From: a virus
Length of the DNA stretch: 50,203 nt
Virus record (IMG/VR): IMGVR_UViG_3300046170_000009
Coordinates: 1-50,203 of that record
Reading direction: 5' to 3' (one strand)
The notes beneath the pieces are model-generated. The model saw nothing but the letters and a program-made list of their open reading frames with translations, made no database searches and was not told the DNA's origin. A program made the translations under genes and the position numbers. Positions 1 through 50,203 of the stretch are shown here, in pieces (positions within the stretch are counted from its first letter, which is position 1; each line of letters starts with the position of its first letter).

Positions 1-317
1 TTGTTTTTGCAGAGGCCGCAGGGTGTCTGGATCTGGTACGCACTATCGTGGCTGAGTGTGGCGTGTCTTGGTCAGCAGTCTTTGATCAGCTACCTAGACT
101 CAATAGCTCGCTGACCTACCTTGCGAATGCTTGGAATCAGTACTCAGATAAGATGGGTAAGAATCAATGGGCTGTCTACAATACGCTAACGGATTGGTCT
201 ACTCATGCCCCAGCGGCTACTCAAAAGACTCAGGCTAACATCGCCTCAGTGAATCACAAGCGCCAAGATATTGTACGCAACGTGTGTAACTCTGATGTCT
301 TCCGCATCGCGGCCTGA
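1..317 (+). CDS. C-terminal part of DUF932-type phage/plasmid protein (continues from the right end of the window)
   Basis: This is the open 3' part of a gene whose start lies at 49573. Reading from base 3 there is no start before the stop at 315-317, and the frame continues without a break across the 50203/1 junction. The segment ends with the pattern usual for DUF932 proteins: a 'YNTLTDWSTHAP' stretch, then an Arg-rich helix and a short end. DUF932 proteins are common in plasmids and phages; their biochemical role is not established. The GTG at 48 is an internal codon, not a start. The full protein would be 315 aa, a normal length for the family. Family call from memory of the motif, not a search. 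Confidence 0.85.
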   Translation, partial: VFAEAAGCLDLVRTIVAECGVSWSAVFDQLPRLNSSLTYLANAWNQYSDKMGKNQWAVYNTLTDWSTHAPAATQKTQANIASVNHKRQDIVRNVCNSDVFRIAA

Positions 318-492: not shown

Positions 493-508
493 TTATAGAA
501 TCTATAAG
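492..508 (+). promoter_or_regulatory. 17-bp GANTC-centred palindrome, copy 1
   Basis: CTTATAGAATCTATAAG is a perfect inverted repeat around a central A. It lies between a terminator and the next gene, and its right arm runs straight into the AAGGAG ribosome binding site of the gene at 518. One of eight near-identical copies in the window, all in the early region. Its role (operator, promoter element, RNA hairpin) is unknown. Confidence 0.9.
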
Positions 509-517
509 GAGTTATTA

Positions 518-724
518 GTGCCAAAGGAAAAAGAAAAAATATTAAATGTTCAAAGACTAATCAGATCAGCAATGAACGATGAAGACTACTGTTCTTTTAT
601 TCTTGATTGTTTACATGAAGAACAAAGTAAGTTTTCTTTAGAAAGATTAAATAAATTCTGGGACGATGCCGCTAAATCTAGTGACACCGTTGAAGAATGG
701 ATAACCAACAACAGAGGAAAGTAA
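518..724 (+). CDS. hypothetical small protein, 68 aa
   Basis: Not recognised. The start is GTG at 518 because AAGGAG sits 6 nt upstream; the in-frame ATG at 434 would place the terminator and palindrome inside the gene and is rejected. The product is charged and helical, with a Lys/Glu-rich N-terminus. It is followed 1 nt later by the gene at 726, so both are probably translated from one message that begins after the palindrome. Confidence 0.75.
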   Translation: MPKEKEKILNVQRLIRSAMNDEDYCSFILDCLHEEQSKFSLERLNKFWDDAAKSSDTVEEWITNNRGK

Positions 725-725
725 T

Positions 726-947
726 ATGTATTATATAACACCCCGAAACCAGCGCGGCATTGGTGACATGATTATTTGGCGACAAGTTAAAAGACTAAAA
801 GACTTTAAAGCTGAAGATGGTTTTGAATATATTGTTGCTAGAAATGAAAGAGAAAGACGTATTGAAAGGGGTACTTCATTGCCAATCTATATTGGTTTGA
901 ATGGTAAACTAAAGAAGTGTAGTAGCTATGCACTCTATTTATTTTAG
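726..947 (+). CDS. hypothetical small basic protein, 73 aa
   Basis: Not recognised. The ATG at 726 follows a GAGGA site at normal distance. The product is rich in Arg and Lys, with an 'RNERERRIERG' stretch, which would suit nucleic-acid binding but shows no known fold. Compactly packed between neighbours in the early operon. Confidence 0.75.
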   Translation: MYYITPRNQRGIGDMIIWRQVKRLKDFKAEDGFEYIVARNERERRIERGTSLPIYIGLNGKLKKCSSYALYLF

Positions 948-955
948 GAGCTTGT

Positions 956-1348
956 ATGTTATTTAAAAACGAATGTAATCATCCAGAAGAAAACTATTTA
1001 TTTTCTATGGAGATTGACGGCGAGCAGTGTGATGTTTGGGTAGTAGAAGATTCTTGTAAATTAAAATGCGATAGAGATCACCATGAGTTTTGTTTGCGCT
1101 ATGGCAACGAAGACCACGAGTATAAAAGTAGTTGGGATTGTAGTTTAATTGAAAGAATTATTTGTCGCCGCACCCAATATTTAGAAGACGTAAATGAACG
1201 ACGAGATATTGACCAACTAATAAAACTAAAAGCAAGACTACAAGAAGCGGGGTACTGGGACATTGAATGGAATTTAGACTTAGAAATCATAGAGCTACAG
1301 GCACAAGTTAAAGAGTATAATGACATGCCACGTTTCAAATCTGTGTAG
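956..1348 (+). CDS. hypothetical acidic protein, 130 aa
   Basis: Not recognised. Good ribosome binding site (TAGGAG, 6 nt spacing). The protein has Cys and His residues scattered through its N-terminal half (CNH, CDV, CKLKCDRDHHEFC, CSL, CRR), which hints at metal binding but forms no standard zinc finger. The C-terminal half is helical. The stop codon is followed directly by palindrome copy 2. Confidence 0.75.
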   Translation: MLFKNECNHPEENYLFSMEIDGEQCDVWVVEDSCKLKCDRDHHEFCLRYGNEDHEYKSSWDCSLIERIICRRTQYLEDVNERRDIDQLIKLKARLQEAGYWDIEWNLDLEIIELQAQVKEYNDMPRFKSV

Positions 1349-1365
1349 CTTATAGAATCTATAAG
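1349..1365 (+). promoter_or_regulatory. 17-bp GANTC-centred palindrome, copy 2
   Basis: CTTATAGAATCTATAAG, identical to copy 1, starts right after the stop codon of the upstream gene. As in copy 1, its right arm merges with the AAGGAG site of the next gene (ATG at 1375). This is the last copy in the rightward direction. Confidence 0.9.
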
Positions 1366-1374
1366 GAGTTTATT

Positions 1375-1989
1375 ATGTATAAAATTCATGCAAAAGCTGT
1401 GCAAGATTACTCTAGATTATCTAGTGACAATCTTTCTGATGTGATCCTGATGGTGGTACTGAGTATACAACAGCCTTGGTATGCGGTGGGTGATCAGCTA
1501 AAAGATGTAAAGAAACTTGGGCGTGACTCTAGATTTATTTGGGGTAACAAGATCAAAACCTTTGACTCGTTGAAGTCCAAGAAAGATTTTATTTATTCAC
1601 AGTATCTGGCAGTGCTCAACTCATCCAAGTCTGATGACGAACGGGCGCTGTCTTTGATGAATGTTTTCTTACAGATCGACGGGCTTGGTCTAGCTAAAGC
1701 TGGGTTCATGTGTCAGTTAACTGCGGGGCTGGTCGGGTGTATAGACGTACACAATATTCGGATGTACAATATTCCTAAGAAGGACTTGTCATTCTCTAAG
1801 TCTATCAAGTCTAAGGCATTGAAGGATAAGAAGATTTCTAATTATGTGTCGGTCTGCCATGACATCGGCACAGAAAATTTATGGGATACTTGGTGCAGTT
1901 TTCTAGCAACCAAGTCTAAGAAATTTGAAGATGGTTTTCATGTATCAAAAGTACATTATGACTTTCTTCAAAGTGCAGTAAATATTTAA
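1375..1989 (+). CDS. conserved phage protein with a helix-hairpin-helix-like core, 204 aa
   Basis: No firm family. The stretch 'IDGLGLAKAGFMCQL' followed by 'GCIDVHNIRMY' resembles the helix-hairpin-helix plus conserved Asp of HhH-GPD DNA glycosylases (GLG.AKA...D.HN.R), so DNA binding or base excision is possible. The rest of the protein does not show the usual glycosylase lysine clearly. Ribosome binding site AAGGAG overlaps palindrome copy 2, so expression is probably governed by that element. Function is inference; the reading frame itself is secure. Confidence 0.75.
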   Translation: MYKIHAKAVQDYSRLSSDNLSDVILMVVLSIQQPWYAVGDQLKDVKKLGRDSRFIWGNKIKTFDSLKSKKDFIYSQYLAVLNSSKSDDERALSLMNVFLQIDGLGLAKAGFMCQLTAGLVGCIDVHNIRMYNIPKKDLSFSKSIKSKALKDKKISNYVSVCHDIGTENLWDTWCSFLATKSKKFEDGFHVSKVHYDFLQSAVNI

Positions 1990-5648: not shown

Positions 5649-7304
5649 ATGGGCGAATTTGTGGAGTATCACAAGCCTTGTCCAAGTTGTGGAGGCAGTG
5701 ATCCTGTCTCCATAAACTCAGATGGTTCTGCAAAATGTTTTAGTTGTGGAACCTTTTTTAAAGATTACGAATCTGCGATGGGAGGAAACGTGGCAGACTT
5801 TAATAGCTTTAAAAGATCAAACGATAATACTTCATTCACCAACAGCGTGTATCACGCACTCACCGATAGATCTATTTCTCTTGAGACTGCAAAGAAGTTT
5901 GGTGTTCGTTCAGTCAAAGATGAGAAAGGTAATATTATTCAGCATCACTATCCGGTATACATAAACAATGAAGAAGTCGCTACAAAAGTTCGCAATCCTA
6001 ATAAAGCATTTACTTGGTCAGGCTCACCTAAAGGAACTGGGCTTTTTGGTCAGCAAGTGGCACAGTCGGGCGGCAAATACATTACGATCACTGAAGGTGA
6101 ATGTGATGCTATGGCGGCATACGAACTGCTTGGTAGTAAGTGGCCCGTCGTATCTGTTAAGAATGGAGCACAAGGCGCGGCAAAGGACGTTCAAGAAAAT
6201 CTTGAGTTCCTTGAATCGTTTGATACGGTGGTCATTTCATTCGACAACGACAAGCCGGGACGAGAAGCCGCAAAGAAAGTGGCGCGTATTATCAAGCCCG
6301 GAAAAGCTAAGATACTCACACTACCTACTGAGTTCAAAGACCCTAACGAAATGCTCAAGTTGGGTCATCACAAGGCTTACGTTACTGCATGGTGGGCTTC
6401 AAAACTTTACACGCCGTCTGGGATTCTAAACGTCAGTGAAGAGCGTGAGAACTACAAGAAGCGTGAGCGTAAAGAGTCTATCCCCTATCCTTGGAGCGGT
6501 CTTAATACAAAGCTTGATGGATTGAGGCAAGGAGAATTAATCACACTGACAGGCGGTACAGGCTTAGGTAAGTCTAGCGTTACTCGTGAGCTTGAACACT
6601 GGCTTATCACCAACACCAACGACAAGGTAGGTGTCATAGCTCTTGAAGAAGATTGGCGTCGAACTGTAGATGGTATTCTTTCTATTGAAGCTAATGCCAA
6701 ACTACATATTGATAGTGTTCGTACTGAGTTCACTGAAGAAGAAATAGATAATTTCTTTAATGTTCTGTACGACGGTCAAAATAAGAACCGTGTATTTGTT
6801 CATGCTCACCTTGGAATGAATGATGTCGATAGTGTATTTTCTAAACTACGCTTTATGGCAATGGGGCTTGAATGTAAGTGGATAGTATTTGATCACTTGC
6901 ATATGTTATTGTCGATGACAACAGACGGTGATGAACGTCGCAATATAGATTCTATAATGCACAACTTCAGAACACTTGTTGAAGAGACAGGCGTAGGTTT
7001 AATTCTTGTGTCACACCTTAGAAGAGTTGATGGTAATCGCGGTCATGAAAATGGTATTGAAACAGGACTCAATCATCTACGCGGCTCACAAAGTATTGCT
7101 CAGTTATCTGATTGTGTTATATCTTTAGAGCGTAACCAACAATCAGAAGATCCTATTGAGGCCAGTACAACAAAGGTAAGGGTCTTGAAGTCTAGGTACA
7201 CAGGAGATGTCGGCTTGGCTACCCATTTGTTTTATGACAAAGACAGTGGTAGACTCAGCGAGATCGCTATGGAAATAGAAGAACAGGATGAGCTTGAGTT
7301 ATGA
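5649..7304 (+). CDS. bifunctional DNA primase-helicase (T7 gp4-like)
   Basis: The enzyme makes RNA primers and unwinds DNA at the fork. Domains in order: zinc-binding motif with Cys11, Cys14, Cys30, Cys33; a TOPRIM domain with 'ITEGECDAM' (Glu149) and 'SFDNDKPGREAA' (acidic residues at about 199-201); then a RecA-like DnaB-type helicase with Walker A 'GGTGLGKSS' (302-310), 'IALEEDWRR' and a Walker B-like 'WIVFDHLHML'. At 551 aa it is close to T7 gp4 (566 aa). GGAGG precedes ATG 5649. It overlaps the polymerase start by 4 nt (ATGA), so the two are co-translated. Confidence 0.95.
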   Translation: MGEFVEYHKPCPSCGGSDPVSINSDGSAKCFSCGTFFKDYESAMGGNVADFNSFKRSNDNTSFTNSVYHALTDRSISLETAKKFGVRSVKDEKGNIIQHHYPVYINNEEVATKVRNPNKAFTWSGSPKGTGLFGQQVAQSGGKYITITEGECDAMAAYELLGSKWPVVSVKNGAQGAAKDVQENLEFLESFDTVVISFDNDKPGREAAKKVARIIKPGKAKILTLPTEFKDPNEMLKLGHHKAYVTAWWASKLYTPSGILNVSEERENYKKRERKESIPYPWSGLNTKLDGLRQGELITLTGGTGLGKSSVTRELEHWLITNTNDKVGVIALEEDWRRTVDGILSIEANAKLHIDSVRTEFTEEEIDNFFNVLYDGQNKNRVFVHAHLGMNDVDSVFSKLRFMAMGLECKWIVFDHLHMLLSMTTDGDERRNIDSIMHNFRTLVEETGVGLILVSHLRRVDGNRGHENGIETGLNHLRGSQSIAQLSDCVISLERNQQSEDPIEASTTKVRVLKSRYTGDVGLATHLFYDKDSGRLSEIAMEIEEQDELEL

Positions 7305-9055
7305 AGAGCATAGTATTTGATATTGAGGCAGACAGTTTAGAGCCTACAAAGATTTGGTGTATTGCCGCAGTCGATCCTGACTCTGGTGAAACCAAAACCT
7401 TTGGGCCTACTGAGATTGTTAATGGCCTTGCGTTTCTTACGACTGCTGAGAAGCTGATAGGCCATAACATTATTGGCTATGATCTTCCTGCCATCAAGAA
7501 AATACACAACGTAGATCTAACAGAAGGGCGAGCAATTGTTGATACCCTTGTCTTGTCCCGTTTGTTTAATCCTACAAGAGAGGGTGGTCATAGCCTAGAG
7601 TCTTGGGGTTATCGCATTGGCCTACAGAAAATAGATCATACAGAGTTTGGAGAATACTCTCCAGAAATGTTGAACTATTGTAGGAATGATGCAGTTCTCA
7701 ACGCTAAGATGTTTAACAATCTTAAAACAGAGTCTCGTGGCTTTAGTCGGCAGTCTGTTGTTCTTGAACATGAGGCACTAAAGATTATTGCAGATCAAAG
7801 AGAACGTGGCTTTCTACTTGATGTCAGGTCTGCAACTTTACTTGAGGCTGAATTGACTGACCGCCTAAAAGAAGTAGAGCGTGAGGTTCAAAAATCTTTT
7901 AGGCCCAAGCAACTAAAGACTATCTTGTTGCCGCACTTCACCAAGACAGGTGCGCTTTCTAAGATGGGGCAGATAGAAGGCTCGCCAAAGAAAAGCAGGC
8001 TAACGCAAGAAGAGTATGAAGACATAGCCACTAAGCGTAAAGCTATTCGCATTGAAGAAGTACCCTTCAACTTGGGGTCACGAAAACAAATAGGCGAGTA
8101 TCTTATCGACTTTGGTTGGAAGCCAAAAAGATTTACGCCTACAGGTCAGCCTATTGTAGATGAGTCAACACTCAGCAAGATTAAAAATATTCCTGAAGCT
8201 ACACTGATTGCTGAGTATCTTCTACTTCAGAAACGAATAGCACAGGTTAAATCTTGGTTGAAGGCAACGCATGAAGATGATCGTGTGAGAGGCTTTGTAA
8301 ATCCTAATGGTACTATCACAGGACGTATGACACATAACAGCCCTAACATGGCACAGGTTCCAAATCTTTCTGCCCCTTACGGTAAAGAATGTAGATCCTG
8401 TTGGACAGTACCAGAAGGCTATAAGCTAGTAGGTATTGATGCCAGCGGTCTAGAGTTACGAATGCTTGCACACTATATGAAGGATGAGGACTTCAAAAAT
8501 GAAATACTCCACGGAGACATACACTCAGCTAACCAAAAGCTTGCAGGACTTGAATCAAGAAATCAGGCGAAAACATTTATCTATGCACTCTTGTACGGAG
8601 CAGGAGATGAGAAACTTGGTAGTGTGGTCGGAGGAAATAAGCGTGATGGTGCGAAACTTAGAAAGCGTTTCTTCGATAATCTCCCTGCATTTAAACATCT
8701 TAAAGACAGGGTTGGACGAGCGGCTTCAAAAGGTTTCCTCAAAGGACTAGATGGGCGTAAGTTATATGTTCGTTCTGAACACGCCGCACTGAACACACTG
8801 CTTCAAAGCGCAGGAGCTATCGTCATGAAGCAGGCGATGGTAAATCTTAATCAGCTAATCAGGCTCAATACATTAGACGCACACTTTGTCTGCAACGTAC
8901 ACGACGAATGGCAGTTAGAAGTAAAAGAATCTGTGGCTGATTCAACAGGACAACTGGGGGTTGATGCAATAAAGCAAGCGGGTGTAGGACTAGAATTATT
9001 TTGTCCTCTTGATGGTGAATACAAGCTAGGAGATAACTGGAGTGAAACACACTGA
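7301..9055 (+). CDS. polA: DNA polymerase, family A, with 3'-5' exonuclease
   Basis: Replicative polymerase. The exonuclease domain shows Asp7/Glu9 in 'VFDIEAD', 'HNIIGYDLPA' (Asp61) and 'YCRNDAVLN' (Asp130). The polymerase domain shows motif A 'DASGLELRMLAHYM' (380-393), motif B 'RNQAKTFIYALLYG' (420-433) and motif C 'HDEW' (534-537). In motif B, aligning with E. coli Pol I puts Tyr428 at position 762; Tyr or Phe there is associated with virulent phages. At 584 aa it is shorter than T7 polymerase (704 aa) and I see no obvious thioredoxin-binding insertion. Starts in an ATGA overlap. Confidence 0.95.
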   Translation: MKSIVFDIEADSLEPTKIWCIAAVDPDSGETKTFGPTEIVNGLAFLTTAEKLIGHNIIGYDLPAIKKIHNVDLTEGRAIVDTLVLSRLFNPTREGGHSLESWGYRIGLQKIDHTEFGEYSPEMLNYCRNDAVLNAKMFNNLKTESRGFSRQSVVLEHEALKIIADQRERGFLLDVRSATLLEAELTDRLKEVEREVQKSFRPKQLKTILLPHFTKTGALSKMGQIEGSPKKSRLTQEEYEDIATKRKAIRIEEVPFNLGSRKQIGEYLIDFGWKPKRFTPTGQPIVDESTLSKIKNIPEATLIAEYLLLQKRIAQVKSWLKATHEDDRVRGFVNPNGTITGRMTHNSPNMAQVPNLSAPYGKECRSCWTVPEGYKLVGIDASGLELRMLAHYMKDEDFKNEILHGDIHSANQKLAGLESRNQAKTFIYALLYGAGDEKLGSVVGGNKRDGAKLRKRFFDNLPAFKHLKDRVGRAASKGFLKGLDGRKLYVRSEHAALNTLLQSAGAIVMKQAMVNLNQLIRLNTLDAHFVCNVHDEWQLEVKESVADSTGQLGVDAIKQAGVGLELFCPLDGEYKLGDNWSETH

Positions 9056-11535: not shown

Positions 11536-11711
11536 AATCGCCTTGCACAAAAGTATGTACACTTAGGGATGGGGTGTGCATTGGATGTGGAAGGAGCCTA
11601 AACGAAATAACAAACTGGTCAAAATATACCACCAAAGAAAGGAGTAATATCATTGGACGCCTATCAAGAATACATACACAAAAGTCGTTACGCACGATAC
11701 CTTCCAAGTGA
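11532..11711 (+). CDS. DUF1289 small zinc-binding-like protein, 59 aa
   Basis: Read directly; the gene overlaps its neighbours on both sides. 'SPCTKVCTLRDGVCIGCGRS' followed by 'LNEITNWSKYTTKERSNII' is the DUF1289 signature: four Cys, then E..W..m...er. DUF1289 proteins are common in bacteria, usually 50-80 aa, function unknown. The final 59 nt lie inside the ribonucleotide reductase gene in another frame, so its tail past about residue 41 may be non-conserved. ATG 11532 overlaps the previous stop codon. Confidence 0.8.
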   Translation: MKSPCTKVCTLRDGVCIGCGRSLNEITNWSKYTTKERSNIIGRLSRIHTQKSLRTIPSK

Positions 11712-13512
11712 GGAGCGTAGAGAAACATGGAAAGAAACAATAACGCGCTACATTAAATATTGGGGAGATAAACTCAATGATGATGAGCGTGTAGAAATAT
11801 TTAAAGCTATCCACGATCTTGAGGTCATGCCGTCTATGAGGGCTTTGATGACCGCTGGTGAAGCATTAGATCGTGATAACATGGCAGGATTTAATTGTAG
11901 TTATCTTGCTATCGACAGCCCGCGTTGCTTTGATGAAATGATGTATGTTCTTATGTGCGGTACAGGTGTTGGTTATAGCGTAGAAGAACAATACGTTTCT
12001 AAACTTCCAGAGATCGCAGAGGATTTTCATGCAACAGATACAGTCATACACGTACCGGATTCAAAAGTTGGATGGGCGAAATCGTTTAGGGAATTGGTAT
12101 CGTTGTTATATTCAGGTCAAATACCAGAATGGGACACAACTAGAGTTCGACCTGCGGGTTCCTCGCTCAAAACTTTTGGAGGTAGAGCAAGCGGCCCAGA
12201 ACCTCTTATCGACCTCTTCAAATTTACAGTTAGATTATTTACGGGAGCGGCTGGACGAAAGCTTACGTCCCTTGAATGCCACGATCTTTGCTGTAAGATT
12301 GCTCAAATCGTCGTCGTCGGAGGAGTCAGACGATCAGCTTTAATTAGTTTATCTGATTTATCAGACGATGCACTACGACAAGCAAAGCATGGAGCATGGT
12401 ATAATACTGAGGCACAGCGTGGCCTTGCAAATAACAGTGCTTGTTATAATAGCAAGCCTTCTTTTGAATTATTTTTAGATGAATGGAGAAGTCTTTATGA
12501 ATCAAAAAGTGGAGAACGAGGAATCTTCAGTAGAGCCGCAAGTCAAAAACAAGCTTCAAGAAATGGTAGAAGAGATAGTGAAAGAGATTTCGGTACGAAT
12601 CCCTGTTCCGAAATTATATTACGAAAATCCCAAACTTGCAACCTTTCAGAAGTTGTCGTCAGACCGGAAGATACGGCTAGATCTCTTGGGAGAAAAGTAC
12701 GTCTTGCAACTATCTTGGGTACTCTCCAAGCTACCCTCACGGACTTCCGATACCTCAGAGGAATCTGGAAAGCCAACACCCAAGAAGAGGCGCTCTTAGG
12801 AGTAAGCCTTACAGGTATTCTTGACAATCCTTTGCTTACTCTTGAGAACAAAGATCTTGATGGACTGCTTGAAAACTTACGTGACATAGCTATTGAAACA
12901 AATAAAGAGTGGGCAGAACGCTTAGGTATTTCTCAGAGTACAGCCATTACCTGTGTTAAGCCCAGCGGCACAGTCTCTCAGTTAGTTGATTCTGCATCAG
13001 GCATCCACGGACGCTATGCACCATATTATATTCGTCGTGTTAGAGCAGACATGCGTGACCCCCTGTGTGCTGTCTTAGAAGACGCTGGAGTGCCTTGTGA
13101 GAAGGATAGTTTTTCACCCAGTACTAAGGTATTCTCCTTCCCTAAGAAGGCTCCAGAGAGCGCTGTGTTTGCCTCAGAGCAGACAGGGATGGAACAGTTA
13201 GAGTTGTGGGCTAAGTACCAGAAGCATTGGTGTGAACACAAGCCTAGCATCACTGTATATTATCGTGACTCAGAGTTTTTGGAGATCGGTAATTGGGTAT
13301 ACAACAACTTTGATGATATATCAGGTATATCTTTTTTACCGTATGACGAACACAGCTATGCTCAAGCACCATATGAGCAAATAACAGAAGAGCAATACAA
13401 TGAAATGGTTGAAGGATTTCCAACAGAGTTTGATTGGAATCTTAATGAGGCTGATGATTTTACTGAAGGAGCCCAAACACTAGCCTGTGTTGGTGGGGCT
13501 TGCGAACTCTGA
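11653..13512 (+). CDS. nrdJ: ribonucleoside-triphosphate reductase, class II (adenosylcobalamin-dependent), monomeric type
   Basis: Makes deoxynucleotides for phage replication using a B12-generated thiyl radical. Visible residues: Cys82 in 'GFNCSYLAI', 'NPCSEI' with Asn316-Cys318-Glu320, 'KPSGTVSQLVDSASGIHGRY', and the C-terminal redox pair Cys612/Cys617 in 'CVGGACEL'. No N-terminal ATP cone and no second subunit nearby. At 619 aa it is shorter than the Lactobacillus enzyme (739 aa), as in other marine phage forms. TTG start at 11653 follows AAAGGAG; homology begins at once with 'YQEYIHKSRYARYLP', so little can be missing. Confidence 0.95.
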   Translation: MDAYQEYIHKSRYARYLPSEERRETWKETITRYIKYWGDKLNDDERVEIFKAIHDLEVMPSMRALMTAGEALDRDNMAGFNCSYLAIDSPRCFDEMMYVLMCGTGVGYSVEEQYVSKLPEIAEDFHATDTVIHVPDSKVGWAKSFRELVSLLYSGQIPEWDTTRVRPAGSSLKTFGGRASGPEPLIDLFKFTVRLFTGAAGRKLTSLECHDLCCKIAQIVVVGGVRRSALISLSDLSDDALRQAKHGAWYNTEAQRGLANNSACYNSKPSFELFLDEWRSLYESKSGERGIFSRAASQKQASRNGRRDSERDFGTNPCSEIILRKSQTCNLSEVVVRPEDTARSLGRKVRLATILGTLQATLTDFRYLRGIWKANTQEEALLGVSLTGILDNPLLTLENKDLDGLLENLRDIAIETNKEWAERLGISQSTAITCVKPSGTVSQLVDSASGIHGRYAPYYIRRVRADMRDPLCAVLEDAGVPCEKDSFSPSTKVFSFPKKAPESAVFASEQTGMEQLELWAKYQKHWCEHKPSITVYYRDSEFLEIGNWVYNNFDDISGISFLPYDEHSYAQAPYEQITEEQYNEMVEGFPTEFDWNLNEADDFTEGAQTLACVGGACEL

Positions 13513-14621: not shown

Positions 14622-14888
14622 TTAATCTCCCGGTGGAAAGCCTAACATCTTCTCATTTGAAATTATCCAAGCCTTTGGGATTGCCAGTTCTGCATCACCC
14701 TGTACAGGCTTACCATCTTCTAAAAGCATATGAGGACATATAATTATTATGTCATCGTCTTCGTGTATTACTATTCCGCATGAAACTGCTATGGCGGTTG
14801 TGATTTGTTTTAGTTCGCTAATGTCTCTCCAGCCTGTGTTAGCACCTCCAGAGGCATCGTGCCATACAACTTTGTGTATCGTTACCAC
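14622..14888 (-). CDS. hypothetical protein, 88 aa
   Basis: Not recognised by family, though the pattern ('VVWHDASGGANTGWRDI', 'GIVIHEDDDIIIICPHML') looks like small phage proteins found beside structural genes. Starts with GTG at 14888, just inside the restored end of the LysM protein (see that entry). Short beta-rich protein. 1 nt gap to the next gene. Confidence 0.65.
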   Translation of the reverse strand: MVTIHKVVWHDASGGANTGWRDISELKQITTAIAVSCGIVIHEDDDIIIICPHMLLEDGKPVQGDAELAIPKAWIISNEKMLGFPPGD

Positions 14889-14955
14889 TTGACCTTATCA
14901 GCCCAGTAAGCCGCTGACATATTGCCACGCTTGATGTTCTTTCTGTGACGGGCCT
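14882..14955 (-). other. out-of-frame true C-terminus of the LysM virion protein
   Basis: Read one base out of frame, this stretch encodes 'ARHRKNIKRG' followed by 'NMSAAYWADKVKW' and TAA. That ending, preceded by 'KRKSFK', is a recurrent signature of marine phage proteins, so the genuine gene probably ended here. A single extra G in the GG at 14954-14955 explains the difference. Confidence 0.7.
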
Positions 14956-17039
14956 TTGAAGCTCTTGCGCTTGGCTTTCATACGCTTAGATTCACCAGCC
15001 TTTGGCTTGCCAGCAGTCTTAGCACCTTGCTCACCAAAACGGATTATCTTTTCTTTACCGTCTTTGCAGGCTTTGACAACGTGAGACTTTTTAGGGTGGC
15101 TGGCTGTGCGCTTAGGCTTGTTACAGGCCATCTTCTTCTTGTCGATCTTGCCGCCCTTTGCCATACGCTGTTTTATTCGGCCCTCATAACGATCACTGTA
15201 TTCGGCTAGAGTAGGTAAATTATCAAACTGCTCACGAGTTATTCCCAAATCTTTTGCGCTTCCTAAGCCAATTCTAAATGACGGGCCGCTCGCAGGAGGG
15301 TTAAAGACTTCTCCAACAGAGTGCGCTAGACCATATGCAGAAATATCATCCGAAAAATATTGACCTGTTCTATCTGCCAAGAACTTAATTTTATCTACTA
15401 AAGATTTTTCTGAAATATTTTCAGGGCTATTAAAATCAAATTCATCAGCAACAACAACACGATCACCATCCCTAACTATTTCTGCTTTACCTAAAGTAAA
15501 TTTCAAAGCTTGAAAAGGATCAGTTACAATATCTGTGGGTGTTTCCATACTGTATCCAAGCTTAGAGCCAGCGTCCCTGTTATAGTCTTTATAAGAAAGC
15601 CCTGTACGACCACGATCTATAGCGCCTTTAGCAAGACCTTTTAAAGTATTGTGTTCATCAACCCTTAAAAAATCTTCTTTTAAAACAGGACTAGAAAATA
15701 AACCTGCCACAAAAGTTTTAATAGGGGTGGAGGTTAATAAACTAGCAGGCGCTTCTGTGCGCTCTCTAGTAGGCCGCTGACGGCTTCTTGTCATAAGACT
15801 TCGGCTTTCTGTAGGCGCGGCTTTTGTACTTCTAGCCGCCGCCGCTCTTATACCAACGCGCTCTGGCTCTTCTCTCTGTACAGGCTTTCTTACTTCACGC
15901 CTAGCAGGTTGAGCTTGAGGTCTAGCTTCTGCTCCTAAAACTAATGTATCACCAGCGCGAATAAAGTCTGGGTTTTCTATGTTGTTTAGTTTAACAAGAT
16001 CAGAAACACTCACTCCCGTTTCTTTAGAGATTTTAGAAAGCGTATCACCGCTTTTAATTTTTCTAGTGACTGCCCCGCCTTCGGCACTAGCTGTGCGTTT
16101 TGGGGCGATGCTTTCCGTAAAAAGATTTTCATAATCTTCATCTGCCAGCATACCGGCTGTAGAAGCCCCTATCAAACCATAGACTTCAATTTTGTCATAG
16201 ACAGGATGTTTCTTGCCGCGAACAGATATCTCACCTACCTTATTACCTAGATGTACGTTACCCTTTTTTGTTGGCCTTAGTCTTGGTTCAGACTTAGACT
16301 TTTCATATCTCGTAAGCTCAACGCCTTCAGGGAATTCTGCCTGAAGAGTGTAGTAATGTTGCTTACCGTCCTCAACAGAAACAAGCGGGAAACTGGAGGG
16401 CGGTTCAGGATTAAACCCGTTAGGAACCTGTGTCCATCTCCAGCCTGCTTTCTTTTTAAACAAATTGGTCTTAATCTTTCTACCATCTGTGCGTGTTTCG
16501 CCCTCCAACAAAGCCTTAGAGACTTGCATGACCGGCTTGCCTTCTGGTGTAACGCCAATCAAAGCTCTTTGAGGAAACTCTCCTGTGATATCTTTTGGGC
16601 CTTCCCCACCCATTTCAAGATATCTGCCTCCGGGTTGCTCTCCCATATCACCTAAGAACGGCTTGAAGGCTTTGTCTTCTGGGTCAAAAAATCTTTGAGG
16701 TGCAGGCATCACATTTCTGCTTGGTAACTTAGCGTTGTTTATTTTTGCGGCATGATAAGCATCACGCATATCTGGATTACCAGAAAAGAGTTTGTTTTCT
16801 ACCTCCAAGTACATCCCAAGGTTGGGGTCTAAGTTTACATCAGCCTTAAAGTTAGGATCATCAGTGACCATAGCCTTTGTCATTCTAAGCAAATAGTCCT
16901 GACCGTCTTTACTTTCTAAACCTTTAGTGGTTACAACCTCATCTACTTGAGCACTGATAGCCTTTTGTATGTCAGTATCTTTAAACATATCACCAGTAGC
17001 CTTTACAACTTGTTTTGCAATCATACTAGCTAGGCTCAT
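14898..17039 (-). CDS. LysM-containing virion-associated protein (3' end frameshifted)
   Basis: A 713-aa product as read. A LysM peptidoglycan-binding domain lies at about residues 326-369 ('KIKSGDTLSKISKETGVSVS', then 'IRAGDTLVLG'), followed by a basic, Arg/Pro-rich linker. LysM in a virion protein suggests cell-wall contact during DNA entry. The C-terminus is Lys-rich with Cys. The frame seems to shift by one base at about 14951-14955 (AAAGGCCC): the next frame gives the common marine-phage ending 'SAAYWADKVKW' and a stop at 14882-14884, whereas the present frame stops early. Neighbour of the big internal proteins; overlaps the next gene upstream (TAATG). Confidence 0.75.
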   Translation of the reverse strand: MSLASMIAKQVVKATGDMFKDTDIQKAISAQVDEVVTTKGLESKDGQDYLLRMTKAMVTDDPNFKADVNLDPNLGMYLEVENKLFSGNPDMRDAYHAAKINNAKLPSRNVMPAPQRFFDPEDKAFKPFLGDMGEQPGGRYLEMGGEGPKDITGEFPQRALIGVTPEGKPVMQVSKALLEGETRTDGRKIKTNLFKKKAGWRWTQVPNGFNPEPPSSFPLVSVEDGKQHYYTLQAEFPEGVELTRYEKSKSEPRLRPTKKGNVHLGNKVGEISVRGKKHPVYDKIEVYGLIGASTAGMLADEDYENLFTESIAPKRTASAEGGAVTRKIKSGDTLSKISKETGVSVSDLVKLNNIENPDFIRAGDTLVLGAEARPQAQPARREVRKPVQREEPERVGIRAAAARSTKAAPTESRSLMTRSRQRPTRERTEAPASLLTSTPIKTFVAGLFSSPVLKEDFLRVDEHNTLKGLAKGAIDRGRTGLSYKDYNRDAGSKLGYSMETPTDIVTDPFQALKFTLGKAEIVRDGDRVVVADEFDFNSPENISEKSLVDKIKFLADRTGQYFSDDISAYGLAHSVGEVFNPPASGPSFRIGLGSAKDLGITREQFDNLPTLAEYSDRYEGRIKQRMAKGGKIDKKKMACNKPKRTASHPKKSHVVKACKDGKEKIIRFGEQGAKTAGKPKAGESKRMKAKRKSFKGPSQKEHQAWQYVSGLLG

Positions 17040-30433: not shown

Positions 30434-31885
30434 TTAAATTGCCGCAATAATAAATGCGAGTAGTTCTGAATAACGTACACCCATGCGGCTACGCTCTTCA
30501 CCAGTTTCTTCGTCCGTCCAAGTGCTGTGGATAAACATTGCGTATCGTCCAGCGTTTAAACCTTCAGCCTCAAATGCGGCCTTGAGGTCTTGTGCAATGA
30601 TGCCAAAGTGAATACGAGCGTCATCGCCTTTTTCTTCTACAGCAGACTTCCAGCGGAACTTACGCAAAAGTCCTTTAGCCGCCACAGCTACGCGAGTCTC
30701 TGCTTCTGACAGGGTTTCAATATCTTGCTTCTCGTTAGCGTCAGAGGTCTGGATAGTTCCGTTGGTGGCGTATACATCATCCCAACGAACACTTGCGTTT
30801 CCTATATCAAGCTCATTATCCCTATCTGCTCCCTCATACCAAGGAATAATTGAACTTGCGGCTCCTCTAAAGCCTGACTTGTTAGTTGAAACTCTTAAAT
30901 TCATACCAAGTACTGCGCCTGAATAAGAGTCAATACTACCCATAATAGTCCCGCCTTTGCGGAATGAAGCAAGAGTACCGTCAGATGAAAGCCTGTTTAA
31001 AAGTAAAGGCCCGCCCCCATCACGAACGCCTACTAGAGTACCGTCTGCGTTAATTTCGCCGCCTGCTGTAGTTGTTGAAGTAGACGACTTACCAACCAGC
31101 AAGTTACCAGAGCTATCAACACGCATACGCTCTGTGCTAGTTGTCCATAACTGCATAGAGTCATCGTTGTGGTTATAACGCAACACTCCTGCATATTCAG
31201 CAGAGGTCGCTGAATTATCTCCAAAGTAAATAGAACCGTTATTAGTAGTCCCGGTTTGAATGGAAATTATTTCAGAGGAAGTGTTGTCGCCAATCTGCAA
31301 ACTTCTGAGAGGACTCGCAGTACCAATACCAACGTTGCCACCACCATCTACTAAGAACATAGTAGTGTTAGAGCTATTTGCAATTAAAAAAGAATCATCG
31401 TTGGAGGTGTTTCCTGCTTTGATTTTAACACCATCACCAGTACTACCGTCGACTTCTAAAGGAAAACTTGGACTCGTAGTACCAATACCAACATTTTCTG
31501 AAGCATCAATCGTAATCGCTACCGCATCTGCATTGTCATCAATGCCTGTAGAACTAAAATTACCTAACGGATAACTCATCTGAGAAGTACCTACAGTCCC
31601 ATCAGAGGGCGTACCAACACTCAGAACATCTCCAAGCACCAGAATATAATCAATAACATCAGAAGACGTTAGTGCTGAACTAAAGGTAATGTTGCTACCA
31701 GAGACTGTAAAAGCTGTTTCAGGTGCTTGAGTTACACCATTCAACGAAACAAGCATATTTCTTGCAGACTCTGGAGAATAAGCAACACTATCTTTAGTCA
31801 AAGCATATGTTGCGGTAGCCGATGTTGTAATAGAATCTAGAAGTACAAAATTACCGGCTACGGGTTCTTTTCCGATGTAAGGCAT
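30434..31885 (-). CDS. tail fibre / spike with S74 chaperone domain, 483 aa
   Basis: Beta-rich repeat region with 'GNVGIGT' motifs, typical of trimeric fibres, then a C-terminal peptidase S74 intramolecular chaperone: 'TSDANEKQDIETL' with Ser and Lys five residues apart (the self-cleavage pair) and 'HFGIIAQDLKAAFE'. S74 domains help trimer folding and then cut themselves off at the Ser. Unlike its two paralogs it lacks the final coiled-coil and ends 'LLAFIIAAI'. Third of three S74 fibre genes in tandem; strong AAGGAG. Confidence 0.85.
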   Translation of the reverse strand: MPYIGKEPVAGNFVLLDSITTSATATYALTKDSVAYSPESARNMLVSLNGVTQAPETAFTVSGSNITFSSALTSSDVIDYILVLGDVLSVGTPSDGTVGTSQMSYPLGNFSSTGIDDNADAVAITIDASENVGIGTTSPSFPLEVDGSTGDGVKIKAGNTSNDDSFLIANSSNTTMFLVDGGGNVGIGTASPLRSLQIGDNTSSEIISIQTGTTNNGSIYFGDNSATSAEYAGVLRYNHNDDSMQLWTTSTERMRVDSSGNLLVGKSSTSTTTAGGEINADGTLVGVRDGGGPLLLNRLSSDGTLASFRKGGTIMGSIDSYSGAVLGMNLRVSTNKSGFRGAASSIIPWYEGADRDNELDIGNASVRWDDVYATNGTIQTSDANEKQDIETLSEAETRVAVAAKGLLRKFRWKSAVEEKGDDARIHFGIIAQDLKAAFEAEGLNAGRYAMFIHSTWTDEETGEERSRMGVRYSELLAFIIAAI

Positions 31886-31886
31886 A

Positions 31887-33497
31887 TTATGCTCCTTTAA
31901 GTGCCGTTACTTCGGCTTCTAGTGTTTCGATTCGTGTTACTGCTTCTTGCAGGGCTTTGATAAGTCTTGTCTCAACAACACCTAAACCCGATACCATTTT
32001 ATATCCATCTTCACCATCAGAAACCAGATCAGACCATGCGGTTTGCTCTAACTCTTGCGCCACAACGCCCTCACCAGAACCCTTCGCCTCATCTTTCCAG
32101 TCCCATACACGAGTCTGGATAGCCATGACGTTATTAAGTTCAGAGCCGTGGTCTTGAATGTTATCTTTGAGTGCCGCATCTGACGCTGATACAAAAGACG
32201 GGGTTCCTCCCGCAGACGAAGCAATTCCTCCCGCCCCGCTGTTTCCTCTGGACAAGGAAATAATGGTAGCTGTTCCTGTCCCGTTTGTGTTGTTTAGAGA
32301 TAAGCACGCACCGTTAACTTCGGTTTGTATCTGTCCGGTACTTAAAATAAAAGCCCCTGCCGTACCGTAGCCATAATTAGTGTTTGTTCTACCAACCATC
32401 AAGTTACCAGAGCCATCAATACGCATACGCTCTGTGTTGTTAGTAAAAAATGTAACAGGGTTTGCTGTGAGGTTAGCCACTCTAAACTGGCTAGAGCTTG
32501 CGTAGAGGTAGCCGTAAGTTGACCCTCCAGCTTTAAGCTCAATCGCGCTATCTGATGTGCCATCTACATCAATAAGCCCCCTACCTGAAGTAGCCAATGC
32601 GCCAGCACTTGTAGAGTTCACCAACAAGTTACCAGAGCTATCAATACGCATGGCCTCTGACGTACCGCTCCCACCACCACCGCCAGTTAAAAAGCGCATT
32701 GCTCCTGTTCCGGATGTTGCTCCATAACTGTGCATTGAGACTAGGTTACTGCTGTACTCAACAACGCCCGCATTGGTTTGGTGACTTGCTAAAGACCCTT
32801 TGAAAATAACACCGCCAGAGCTATCAATACGCATACGCTCTGTGTTGTTAGTGCCAAACAAAACGGTGCTGTTTGCTCTGTTCCATACATAAGCATCGCT
32901 TCCAGAACCCTGACCGTAGAAAGCAGAGGTAGAGCCAACGGTGTTGCCGTTACCTGCAAACTCCACTCCAGCACCTGTACTTGATCCAGCCGCTATATTT
33001 AAAAGCTCTGTGGCTGATGTTGTGCCTATAGATACTCTGCCAGAGCTATTCACCGTAACTAACGAATTAGTTTTGTTTGACGTTGAGTCCTCATGCGAAG
33101 CAGTGGCTTGTCTGTTAATTGCAAACGAATCAGGGGTGTCATAAGGGTTTCCAAAAAACCACTCTGTGTCGTTTACTTGGTTGTGACTAAATATACCTGC
33201 CGCACGACTAGCGCCATTAGAATCTAGTATTATGCGGGAATGGCTGAAACTAGAACCACCATCATTGTTGATAGTAATGGTGCTGTCAGCAGTTACAGTC
33301 CCCGTTACGTCAATGCCTGTATTGCTAACAGTTAGCTTTGTGCTTGTCGCGTTGTCGTCTATGCCTGTTGAGGTAAACGTACTAACAGTCGCAGGAGCCG
33401 TTGAAGTCGCACCAATCGTAGTACCATCAATATTACCACCGTCTATATTGACGTTAGCATCTAAAAATTTTGTTGGAGTTTTTCCTAAGAATGGCAT
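31887..33497 (-). CDS. tail fibre / spike with S74 chaperone domain, 536 aa
   Basis: N-terminus 'MPFLGKTPTKFLD' resembles that of the next protein ('MPYIGKEPVAGNF'), so the two share an attachment head. The body repeats 'NTERMRIDSSG' and 'GNLLVN' units; the C-terminus carries the S74 domain ('SDAALKDNI', Ser-x4-Lys) with 'GVVAQELEQTAW' and a closing coiled coil ending 'LEAEVTALKGA'. Likely host-recognition fibre. Good ribosome site; 1-3 nt spacing to neighbours. Confidence 0.88.
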   Translation of the reverse strand: MPFLGKTPTKFLDANVNIDGGNIDGTTIGATSTAPATVSTFTSTGIDDNATSTKLTVSNTGIDVTGTVTADSTITINNDGGSSFSHSRIILDSNGASRAAGIFSHNQVNDTEWFFGNPYDTPDSFAINRQATASHEDSTSNKTNSLVTVNSSGRVSIGTTSATELLNIAAGSSTGAGVEFAGNGNTVGSTSAFYGQGSGSDAYVWNRANSTVLFGTNNTERMRIDSSGGVIFKGSLASHQTNAGVVEYSSNLVSMHSYGATSGTGAMRFLTGGGGGSGTSEAMRIDSSGNLLVNSTSAGALATSGRGLIDVDGTSDSAIELKAGGSTYGYLYASSSQFRVANLTANPVTFFTNNTERMRIDGSGNLMVGRTNTNYGYGTAGAFILSTGQIQTEVNGACLSLNNTNGTGTATIISLSRGNSGAGGIASSAGGTPSFVSASDAALKDNIQDHGSELNNVMAIQTRVWDWKDEAKGSGEGVVAQELEQTAWSDLVSDGEDGYKMVSGLGVVETRLIKALQEAVTRIETLEAEVTALKGA

Positions 33498-33500
33498 TCT

Positions 33501-34916
33501 TTATGCTCCTTTGAGTGCCGCTACTTCGGCTTTGAGTTCTTGAATAGCTTTAATCATCATTGGGACTAGCTTGCTGTAATCAACAGCCCACATATCGTCT
33601 TCAGTTTCACCTTGTGTTACTGCTTCAGGTGCAACGTCAACGAGTTCTTGTGCAACCATGCCGTAGGTCTGGTGTGATCCGTCAGCCTTCCAATCAAAAG
33701 AACGTACACGGATATCATCAATGTTACCTGCTGGTGCGTCTACAATGTTTTCTTTGAGGCGCTGGTCTGAGGATGTGTTGTAAGTTGTGGTTGTTGTGCC
33801 AACGCTAATGTACCCAGCCAAAGTAGCCCCTGTATGAAATCTAATAGCAGTCCAACCAGTACCGCCGCTATTGTGCATTTCTAATCCAGTGCCTGTGCTT
33901 TGTATACCTATCGCAACTTTTGGAGATGTGCTATATGTAGATGTTGTACCAACCAGCAAGTTACCAGAGCTATCAATACGCATACGCTCTGAGCCGTTGT
34001 AGTTACTGTTTGCTGATTGCGTCCTAAATATAATTTTGTTTTTACTGGCAGTACTGGAGCCTACACAATCAAGATAAAGGCCGTCTACTGCACCAACTGC
34101 GGCTTGTTGAGACTCTGTACCATCAAGAATAAGAGCGTTAGTGTCTGTTCCTCCTATGTTTATAAACTTAGCCCAACCAGAAGAACTTGTAGGAGTCGAC
34201 GTACCAATACCTACGTTACCAGAGCTATCAATACGCATACGCTCTGATGCGTTTGTAGTAAAAGTTAAGTTATTTGTGCTGTGTGCATAACCTATAGCGC
34301 CAACATCATTATTATCTGAATCACCAAATAACAAATAAGAGGTAGCTGTATTAGGTGCTAGTATTGAAATACCGCCATTTGAAGCTGAGTGTTCTACAAC
34401 AAGCTCATCTCCTGCACTACTAGCTGTTCCAGTAGAGTCGCCACTTTTAACGTGCAAAGTTCCTTGCGGAGATGTTTCTCCAATACCAACATTGCCAGAG
34501 CTATCTATACGGACAGCTTCGCTTGTATTAGTGATAAAACGCATTGCGTTAGTATTGTGATCGTAACGGATGTTTCCAATGTTGGCGTCGTTTTCATCGC
34601 CAAAATCAATACGGCACTCCCCAGTTGTGCTCGTAATCATCTCAAAAATAGCATCAGCACCTGAGCCTGTTCCGTTTGTTTTTATTCTAAAAGATACATC
34701 TTCACCTGAAGCCGTAGATGGGTTTTCTACTAAAAAGTTTTTGGTGGTGCTTGTGGCTCCTATAGATACGCGACCAGAGCTATCAATCGTAATAGCCGTT
34801 GAAGTCGCATTGTCATCAATACCCGTCGAACTAAAGTTAGTCAACGGATACGATAGATCAGACTCCACAATAGTGTTGGGAGGGATTGCAAGACTGTTTA
34901 ATTTAGTAATAGCCAT
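33501..34916 (-). CDS. tail fibre / spike with S74 chaperone domain, 471 aa
   Basis: Repeats of 'SERMRIDSSGNVGIG' through the middle, then S74: 'SDQRLKENIVDAPAG' (Ser and Lys five apart), 'RVRSFDWKADGSHQ', 'GMVAQELVDVAPEAV', ending in a heptad coil 'IKAIQELKAEVAALKGA'. N-terminus differs from the other two and starts 'MAITKLNSLAIPPN', so it may attach at another point. Overlaps the upstream 110-aa gene (TAATG). Confidence 0.88.
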   Translation of the reverse strand: MAITKLNSLAIPPNTIVESDLSYPLTNFSSTGIDDNATSTAITIDSSGRVSIGATSTTKNFLVENPSTASGEDVSFRIKTNGTGSGADAIFEMITSTTGECRIDFGDENDANIGNIRYDHNTNAMRFITNTSEAVRIDSSGNVGIGETSPQGTLHVKSGDSTGTASSAGDELVVEHSASNGGISILAPNTATSYLLFGDSDNNDVGAIGYAHSTNNLTFTTNASERMRIDSSGNVGIGTSTPTSSSGWAKFINIGGTDTNALILDGTESQQAAVGAVDGLYLDCVGSSTASKNKIIFRTQSANSNYNGSERMRIDSSGNLLVGTTSTYSTSPKVAIGIQSTGTGLEMHNSGGTGWTAIRFHTGATLAGYISVGTTTTTYNTSSDQRLKENIVDAPAGNIDDIRVRSFDWKADGSHQTYGMVAQELVDVAPEAVTQGETEDDMWAVDYSKLVPMMIKAIQELKAEVAALKGA

Positions 34917-39900: not shown

Positions 39901-40890
39901 TTAGTCGATACCGTAGAAAGCCGAAACGAGGGCTTCTGGACGGAGTACTTTAGCACCATATACATGGAGGCCACGTACAATATCACCAAAACTTGATGGA
40001 TCACGAATCACTTCTGTATTCACGATGGTCTGTGCAGTACAGGTAGATGACATGTGACCAGCAATACACTTACCAGCCGCGTTAGTAGTCGCCGCAATGT
40101 TGTTGGTCTTGTACATATCAAAACCACGCAACTTACCAGAGCTTACCAAACCATTACGGATGGAGCCTTGGCCTGCATTGAAATCAACGCTCAAGAGCTT
40201 AGAGCTACTTTGTACCAGTTGCTCGTAGAACTCAGGGTTAGCAAGGAACCAGCGACCTTCTTCTGGAATGTTCTGCTCATCAAGCAGACGCGCCATGTGT
40301 GAAAGAACGTCAATAGGATCGTGCTCGCCAGAAGCGTAACCGATGTCAAGGTTACCAGTACCGTCAAAAGTACCAGCCGCCAAGTCAGTAGCGCTATCAG
40401 AACCAAGAATATGGTTCGGAGAAGCCGCAGGAACGCCAGCAAACATAGCGGCAATTACACCTTCATCAAAAGCGTCACGCAGTGCGTAAGCGGCTGAAGA
40501 TGATGCAACTTCCTTAAAGTTTACGTGAGACATAGAAGTTTCGATGTCGTCAACGATGAACTTAAATGCGTTTGCCGTATCTACAACAAGGCTGACTTCT
40601 TGATCGGTCAACTTAGTTTGAGTTACGTCTGCACCACGCTCGTACTGATAGACGGTGATTACAGGCTCTTTGATAATACGTACTGTATCGCCAAAGGCAG
40701 TAATTTCGCCAGCATAGTCGGTGTTAGTGATAGCTTCCGCTACTGAAGACTTCCGAAAGAAGTTAAGTACCTTCTTGGAATAGACAGCAGGAAGGAAGAA
40801 CGAATTGGTTTGACCCGCAACAGAGTTTGCAAAGTTTGCATCTGTATCTGTTGACGGCTCAAAGTACTGATCTGATTGGTTATAAGCCAT
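39901..40890 (-). CDS. major capsid protein, 329 aa
   Basis: Location after the scaffold and before a terminator, size, and the pattern 'TNSFFLPAVYSKKVLNFFRK', 'VIRIIKEP'-like beta core ('DTVRIIKEPVITVYQYERGA') and 'FKFIVDDIETSMSHVNF' are characteristic of marine podovirus coat proteins with the HK97 fold. Forms the icosahedral shell. A GGAGAT site precedes ATG 40890. Family assignment by pattern and context. Confidence 0.85.
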   Translation of the reverse strand: MAYNQSDQYFEPSTDTDANFANSVAGQTNSFFLPAVYSKKVLNFFRKSSVAEAITNTDYAGEITAFGDTVRIIKEPVITVYQYERGADVTQTKLTDQEVSLVVDTANAFKFIVDDIETSMSHVNFKEVASSSAAYALRDAFDEGVIAAMFAGVPAASPNHILGSDSATDLAAGTFDGTGNLDIGYASGEHDPIDVLSHMARLLDEQNIPEEGRWFLANPEFYEQLVQSSSKLLSVDFNAGQGSIRNGLVSSGKLRGFDMYKTNNIAATTNAAGKCIAGHMSSTCTAQTIVNTEVIRDPSSFGDIVRGLHVYGAKVLRPEALVSAFYGID

Positions 40891-48987: not shown

Positions 48988-49194
48988 ATGATTGTATTTA
49001 ATTATCCAAGCAAGAAAAATTTAAAAGAGAATGTTGGTCAGCCCTTAAAATATATTGAGACTAGTATGTTTGGGCCAGAATATATTAGGAATGGGCAATT
49101 GACCGGCGCTAATAGACCACATATTACTGGTCAGGGTCGTGAATTTTTTGCGACTGTCACCATGCGCGACGGTAAAATAGCGGGAGTAAAATAA
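48988..49194 (+). CDS. hypothetical protein, 68 aa
   Basis: Not recognised. ATG 48988 preceded by AGGAG. 'MIVFNYPSKKNLKENVGQPL' followed by a beta-rich C-terminus ('GREFFATVTMRDGKIAG'). The longer frame to 48937 would run through the terminator. Overlaps the next gene (TAATG). Confidence 0.7.
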   Translation: MIVFNYPSKKNLKENVGQPLKYIETSMFGPEYIRNGQLTGANRPHITGQGREFFATVTMRDGKIAGVK

Positions 49195-49373
49195 TGATAC
49201 TGACAAAAAAACAAAGAAAAGCCTTGTTTAATGTTTGGAATCGTGGTTCAGGTTTAAGCTATCTGCAATTCCGACGCACAGTAGAGCTTGGTTTTTGTAT
49301 GGATGGTGCAGTCATAGTACCTTGGAATGGAATGTGGTTAGCCATTGAGACTGATGGTTACACTCATTCTTAA
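49194..49373 (+). CDS. hypothetical protein, 59 aa
   Basis: Read directly: ATG 49194 overlaps the previous stop. 'KQRKALFNVWNRGSGLSYLQ' then 'RRTVELGFCMDGAVIVPW', aromatic and basic. Resembles small phage proteins beginning with 'LTKKQRKALF..W', but I cannot name a family. Confidence 0.65.
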   Translation: MILTKKQRKALFNVWNRGSGLSYLQFRRTVELGFCMDGAVIVPWNGMWLAIETDGYTHS

Positions 49374-49377
49374 TTAG

Positions 49378-49394
49378 CTTATAGATTCTATAAG
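49378..49394 (+). promoter_or_regulatory. 17-bp GANTC-centred palindrome, copy 7
   Basis: CTTATAGATTCTATAAG; its right arm leads into AAGGAG, the ribosome site of the 29-codon gene at 49405. Confidence 0.9.
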
Positions 49395-49404
49395 GAGATT
49401 TAAA

Positions 49405-49494
49405 ATGTATGAAGATGAAATAATTTTAGAAGCTGATGATTCTGTCGAGCAGTATGATGATATCGACAGCGAATCACCGCTTGACTTTAATTAA
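49405..49494 (+). CDS. acidic 29-aa peptide
   Basis: Read directly. ATG 49405 with a consensus AAGGAG site fused to a palindrome. 'YEDEIILEADDSVEQYDDID' and a short tail: 12 Asp/Glu, no Lys/Arg. Such acidic phage peptides may mimic DNA to inhibit host proteins; this is inference. Confidence 0.55.
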   Translation: MYEDEIILEADDSVEQYDDIDSESPLDFN

Positions 49495-49516
49495 AAGTAA
49501 ATATAGTATTTCAAGT

Positions 49517-49540
49517 GGCTTATAGATTCTATAAGCCTTT
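49517..49540 (+). terminator. palindrome copy 8 extended into a terminator
   Basis: The 17-bp palindrome (49519-49535) is extended by G at the left and C at the right, making a GC-closed stem, and is followed by five T. It could end transcription of the small genes before the DUF932 gene while still being the same protein-binding site. Confidence 0.75.
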
Positions 49541-49572: not shown

Positions 49573-50203
49573 ATGTCTAATGTACATTCGATATTCCAAA
49601 GACCCACACCTTCAATCTTTGATGAGGGTTATGGGCCTGCTGATTTTCCTGTGGCAACTCGCCCAATGCTTTTCTTCAATGATGACACCGATCAATGGTA
49701 TGAATCATCAAAGGTTGCAGTAGTCCGTACAGATACCATGCAAGAGCTAGGTGTGCATGGGAAAAACTACAAGCCTGTTGCACCCAAAGAACTTATACAG
49801 GCCCAGCGTGATATCATCATGCGTAGTGACTTGGAAACTGGTGGTATAACTGAGCGTATTGAGACTGCCTATCACGGCGCGGCTACGTTTGTAAAGTATC
49901 GCTTACCTGAGCATACTTATACTACGCCTGACGGTGACACAGCTTGTCTGACCCTGCTGGGTGTAACCTCGTTGAACAGTACATTTTCTTTTCTTATGTC
50001 TGCGGGTGCTCTTCAATCCGCTTGCTTCAACGGGCAAGTATTTGTTGGTGGAGCGGCGGCTTTGTTCAAGGCTCGACACACCAAGAACCTTGATATACAA
50101 GCGGCGGCTAGGTCTATCACAAAATCTCTAGAGGTTTTCCAGACTGAGCAAGAGCTATGGGCTGAGATGTATCGGACTCAGGTTACAGCCAAGCAAGCCA
50201 TGT
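49573..50203 (+). CDS. DUF932-type phage/plasmid protein, N-terminal part (continues at base 1)
   Basis: ATG 49573 follows AGGAG. Motifs: 'ERIETAYHGAATFVKYRLPE' and 'LTLLGVTSLNSTFSFLMSAG', then 'CFNGQVFVGGAAALFKARHT', which fit the DUF932 family (function unknown, widespread on plasmids and phages). The open frame runs off the window end after 'KQAM'; base 50203 plus bases 1-2 form a Phe codon and the frame goes on to the stop at 315-317. Total 315 aa. Preceded by palindrome copy 8. Confidence 0.85.
   Translation, partial: MSNVHSIFQRPTPSIFDEGYGPADFPVATRPMLFFNDDTDQWYESSKVAVVRTDTMQELGVHGKNYKPVAPKELIQAQRDIIMRSDLETGGITERIETAYHGAATFVKYRLPEHTYTTPDGDTACLTLLGVTSLNSTFSFLMSAGALQSACFNGQVFVGGAAALFKARHTKNLDIQAAARSITKSLEVFQTEQELWAEMYRTQVTAKQAM

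Follow-up and report, generated by a model that had tools for sequence, protein, structure and literature searches.

The window analysed here is a viral DNA record of 50,203 nt in IMG/VR (IMGVR_UViG_3300046170_000009). Its packaging, structural and replication genes, and the gene that is divided between its two ends, are as follows.

5649..9055, plus strand: primase/helicase and family A DNA polymerase (replication module)
11653..13512, plus strand: ribonucleotide reductase
39901..40890, minus strand: major capsid protein
42562..44731, minus strand: portal / head-tail adaptor gene, in two overlapping frames in the record
44844..46526, minus strand: terminase large subunit (TerL)
46730..47122, minus strand: terminase small subunit (weak match, phrog_2538, E=1.5e-5)
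49573..50203, plus strand: 5' part of a DUF932 gene (residues 1-210 and the first base of codon 211)
1..317, plus strand: remaining 3' part of the same gene (from the second base of codon 211 through the stop)

Tail, endolysin-type peptidase, exonuclease and endonuclease genes were also found in the window. The first-pass annotation had called the gene set complete; this is correct for the terminases, portal, capsid, tail, endolysin-type and replication genes, with the reservations that the portal gene is split and that no holin was identified among the window genes. The portal gene is broken at 43937-43953 into two frames and forms a single frame in every relative read, so the record, or the phage itself, differs here from all relatives by one base or more. 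Programmed frameshifting of the portal was considered and rejected, since the frame is single in all of these relatives. A possible second break lies near 14950 (14885-15164, minus strand), at the 3' end of the gene for a 713-aa LysM-bearing protein, as judged from one or two relatives. Either break could be a real mutation or an error of sequencing; relatives carry intact copies. Tail-fibre genes at 31090-34850 (minus strand) contain repeated 41-nt units, adjoining a Peptidase_S74 chaperone domain at 30434-31885; these are ordinary tail-fibre repeats.

A DUF932 gene across the window ends

It had been proposed from the sequence of the window that one DUF932-type frame of 315 codons crosses the junction of its ends, with the phase kept by base 50203 and bases 1-2, and both points are borne out. 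Joined, 49573..50203 and 1..317 give 948 nt without an internal stop, encoding 315 aa; codon 211 spans the cut, and at base 1 only this phase stays open, the other two reaching stops within 17-38 codons. An open run of at least 104 codons begins at 4.9% of plus-strand positions in the gene-dense window, so the open frame alone is weak evidence. The joined protein passes the curated cut-off of PF06067 (66 bits vs. 23; E=5e-18), compared with 56.7 bits for the longer half alone, and covers most of the profile (positions 2-218 of 227), while the match of the left part alone ends at 148. Against phrog_1221, the joined protein scores 122.9 bits and the longer half 102.6 bits. A search of the window ends for a terminal repeat, exact or mismatched, gave none.

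Homologs agree with the joined protein, an alignment that had been suggested as a check. A scan of IMG/VR viral contigs yielded 70 loci encoding a DUF932 relative, most of which cover residues 1-315, with up to 94% identity for the best full-length protein. With the window opened elsewhere for the comparison, DNA alignments cross the junction in 66 of the 70 loci. The nearest relatives are 96-97% identical at the DNA level over about 3.4-3.7 kb across the junction; L005 and L006 align in a single piece from -703 to +2953 round the cut (96.3% identity), and L013 from -468 to +2953 (97.0%). Within about 80 aligned bases, L004, L005 and L006 match the window on both sides of the cut, with no base added or lost. 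Among the loci without an alignment over the junction, L070, L071 and L072 are too diverged in DNA (L070 and L072 still encode a full-length protein, 41-47% identical), while the contig of L073 stops within the DUF932 gene. Other contigs start inside the gene at residues 55, 185 and 187 or end inside it at residues 109, 275, 287 and 305, and none does so at the window cut. This evidence on the junction comes from related contigs rather than from source reads of the window genome, whose record keeps no end overlap. In relatives the two ends follow each other base for base, which establishes the circular map and leaves no gap at the cut.

The DUF932 homolog of L012, modelled together with 24 relatives (mean pLDDT 79.8), is predicted to have a beta-strand-rich N-terminal part and a helical C-terminal part, which in the window lie largely on opposite ends. 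The predicted fold matches other phage DUF932/TIGR03299 models only; these proteins share PF06067 and the predicted fold with the window protein, a comparison made between models. Searches of the PDB by sequence and by fold gave nothing convincing. With fold matches confined to DUF932/TIGR03299 phage proteins, no biochemical function can be assigned, and none is supplied by the titles and abstracts of the literature naming DUF932. The protein has no match at 1e-5 among cultured phages; at a lax limit only remote matches appear, including gp08 of HMO-2011, which is a genuine DUF932 protein by Pfam. One scan of bacterial genomes for DUF932 relatives, made in search of a host, returned nothing.

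Palindromes and promoters of the early operon

The sequence signals on either side of the junction are listed below.

47131..47229, both strands: divergent perfect sigma-70-type promoter matches, TTGACA-17-TATAAT (47201-47229, plus; 47159-47131, minus)
48515..49534: palindrome TTATAGAWTCTATAA, six exact copies lying 5' of the junction (starts 48515, 48744, 48763, 48915, 49379, 49520)
493..1364: two exact copies of TTATAGAWTCTATAA on the 3' side (493-507, 1350-1364)

The perfect 15-base palindrome thus occurs in 8 exact copies in the window, on both sides of the junction, and with up to three mismatches there are 21 matches vs. 3.1 expected. Relatives with enough sequence (L004-L014, L028, L033, L035 and others) have 7-11 exact copies each. 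Measured from the DUF932 start, palindromes in the relatives lie at -53 (-51 in L010) and at +1120 to +1134 (nine relatives); those in the window lie at -53 and, only when the ends are joined, at +1123 (the copy at 493). Copies in the early operon often end in a ribosome-binding site (…AAGGAG). This form is found in 34 stretches in IMG/VR, all but one of which match the phage group of the window. Most loci of the sister clade have no TTATAGAWTCTATAA and carry longer hairpins, TTTTAAAACCCC…GGGGTTTTAAAA, instead.

The palindromes might act mainly as RNA hairpins hiding the ribosome site, but five of six copies fold no more than 2 sd better than shuffled sequences; the terminator-like copy at 49520 is the only one of the six to exceed that value, and the array may work as DNA or as RNA. 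Tentatively, the array may be a clade-specific regulatory code, in which the copies would be sites for a DNA- or RNA-binding regulator of the phage, possibly the product of 47999-48469, with sister clades using other hairpins; we regard this as possible rather than probable.

The 156-aa ORF at 47999-48469 (plus strand), of an unassigned family, stands at the head of the early block and is a candidate regulator. Eight loci that bear the palindrome encode it and no palindrome-free locus does; many loci of the set do not extend over this region. The gene at 1375-1989 (plus strand) is downstream of DUF932 in the window clade and immediately precedes it in the sister clade (G003, G004 and others), and this change of gene order goes with the presence or absence of the palindrome.

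The promoter pair at 47131-47229 lies between the late and early blocks and overlaps a small ORF call (47115-47318). Judged by their consensus match, the two are likely the main early promoters, and the pair is a plausible start for a rightward early operon running through the junction.

Kinship with known phages

No close cultured relative of the window phage was found in the phage collection. In its terminase, portal, capsid and tail genes and in their order, the window phage is of the HMO-2011 type, and its nearest TerL proteins (64-66% identity) and DNA polymerases (48%) are those of the Pelagibacter phages HTVC115P, HTVC103P and HTVC104P, which also share the two-block gene order. Structural and packaging genes of the HMO-2011 type have already been described together with an HTVC103P-like polymerase: HTVC103P-type and group IV metagenomic genomes have the same modules (PMC8528129). 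The G+C content of the window (41.2%) is within the range of group IV (31.9-44.4%), a likeness by module type and not genome by genome.

In the cultured phage HTVC115P, the early and late blocks are arranged as in the window, in one linear order; 18 of the 57 window genes are matched, in stretches covering about 35 of 55 kb, and unlike the window these stretches have no DUF932 gene by tblastn. HMO-2011, a Puniceispirillum phage with a circular record, shares coat and amidase-like genes with the window as well as a TerL of 51% identity, and its DUF932 gene (gp08) belongs to the early block and precedes the replication genes. Unlike the window, HMO-2011 has an integrase, and its DNA polymerase carries a DnaJ-type zinc motif. 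Pfam found PF00476 alone, a family A domain, in the window polymerase, and not the partial DnaJ domain that a strict definition of the HMO-2011 type includes.

The genome unit and its packaging

An exact end overlap of a contig is a sign of circular assembly. Two relatives have such an overlap, of 127 bp in each: G002 (49,207 bp), which opens at about 10.1 kb on the window map in a different gene, and G004 (48,585 bp), which opens at a map position other than that of G002. Of the 57 window genes, 47 are matched in G002, collinear round the circle; the window cut falls inside G002 and the G002 cut inside the window, and the size and gene order of the window agree with this independently closed genome. 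The ends of nine long related contigs are scattered over the map without a common stop. Once the window ends are joined, the plus-strand early genes at both ends form one block.

The first-pass annotation had taken the window for a full genome unit opened inside the DUF932 gene, and this is strongly supported by the junction in relatives, the collinearity with G002 and the spacing of the palindromes. From these sequence comparisons, the window very probably represents one complete circular-map genome unit from an uncultured marine phage of podovirus type, opened arbitrarily (probability about 0.95). The circle would have been cut between 50203 and 1, within the early DUF932 gene, by chance: an assembler or curator may have trimmed an overlap and then linearised the circle arbitrarily. 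The cut lends the DUF932 gene no particular significance; it is an ordinary early gene.

The genome had also been described as circularly permuted, which is apt for the map. Genomes whose ends are fixed repeats likewise assemble into circles, so for virion DNA (headful packaging, permuted ends) the description is inferred, from terminase type only. The circular map could be real and the virion DNA linear, with fixed ends elsewhere (short direct terminal repeats or cohesive ends) and the repeat collapsed in assembly. The window shows no sign of packaging mode, and HTVC115P is recorded as linear, with a start close to the gene for the small terminase subunit, although the start of a sequence record is often mere convention. 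Two observations speak against fixed ends: the contig ends of relatives have no common stop, and the phage with the closest TerL for which we found published termini is of the pac/headful type. This is Sinorhizobium phage PhiM6, a terrestrial phage that differs from the window phage in habitat and size (68 kb). The TerL proteins of the two phages share 48% identity over 82% of the length of the window TerL; the PhiM6 termini, as called by PhageTerm, are reported to be pac-type and terminally redundant (PMC6256558). The likeness to PhiM6 TerL and the pac-type ends of that phage make headful packaging the likeliest mode, and by this analogy we consider it probable; fixed ends are unlikely, if still to be reckoned with. 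With headful packaging, headfuls would be taken from a concatemer, and the resulting permuted, terminally redundant virion DNA would assemble as a closed circle.

A circular map would also suit an episome that replicates as a phage-plasmid, or a prophage after excision, as opposed to packaged phage DNA, and an integrase is present in some HMO-2011-type phages (PMC9038755) and in HMO-2011 itself (gp09). The window proteins scanned, however, gave no match to an integrase or partition family, and the single scan of bacterial genomes, which was without a DUF932 relative, also speaks against such an origin, which we consider very improbable. The physical termini of the phage could instead be placed exactly at the window ends, within the DUF932 gene, as the record starts and finishes there; this is scarcely credible, given that no relative contig stops at that base, that contigs starting or ending within the gene have their ends at other residues and that two circularly closed relatives open elsewhere. 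Finally, a linear fragment whose ends share a frame by chance would suit the lack of a terminal repeat and the frequency of open runs this long (4.9% of plus-strand positions), but is refuted by the DNA alignments of relatives over the junction and their base-exact continuity, with full-length homologs and conserved palindrome spacing also against it. An arbitrarily opened, complete circular map remains the preferred reading of the window.

The completeness of the window is ordinary biology and leaves the view of phage biology unchanged. With the record certified as a full genome, its gene absences (no integrase found, no tRNA) and its genome size can be stated, and homologs can prove circular closure where an assembly keeps no end overlap.
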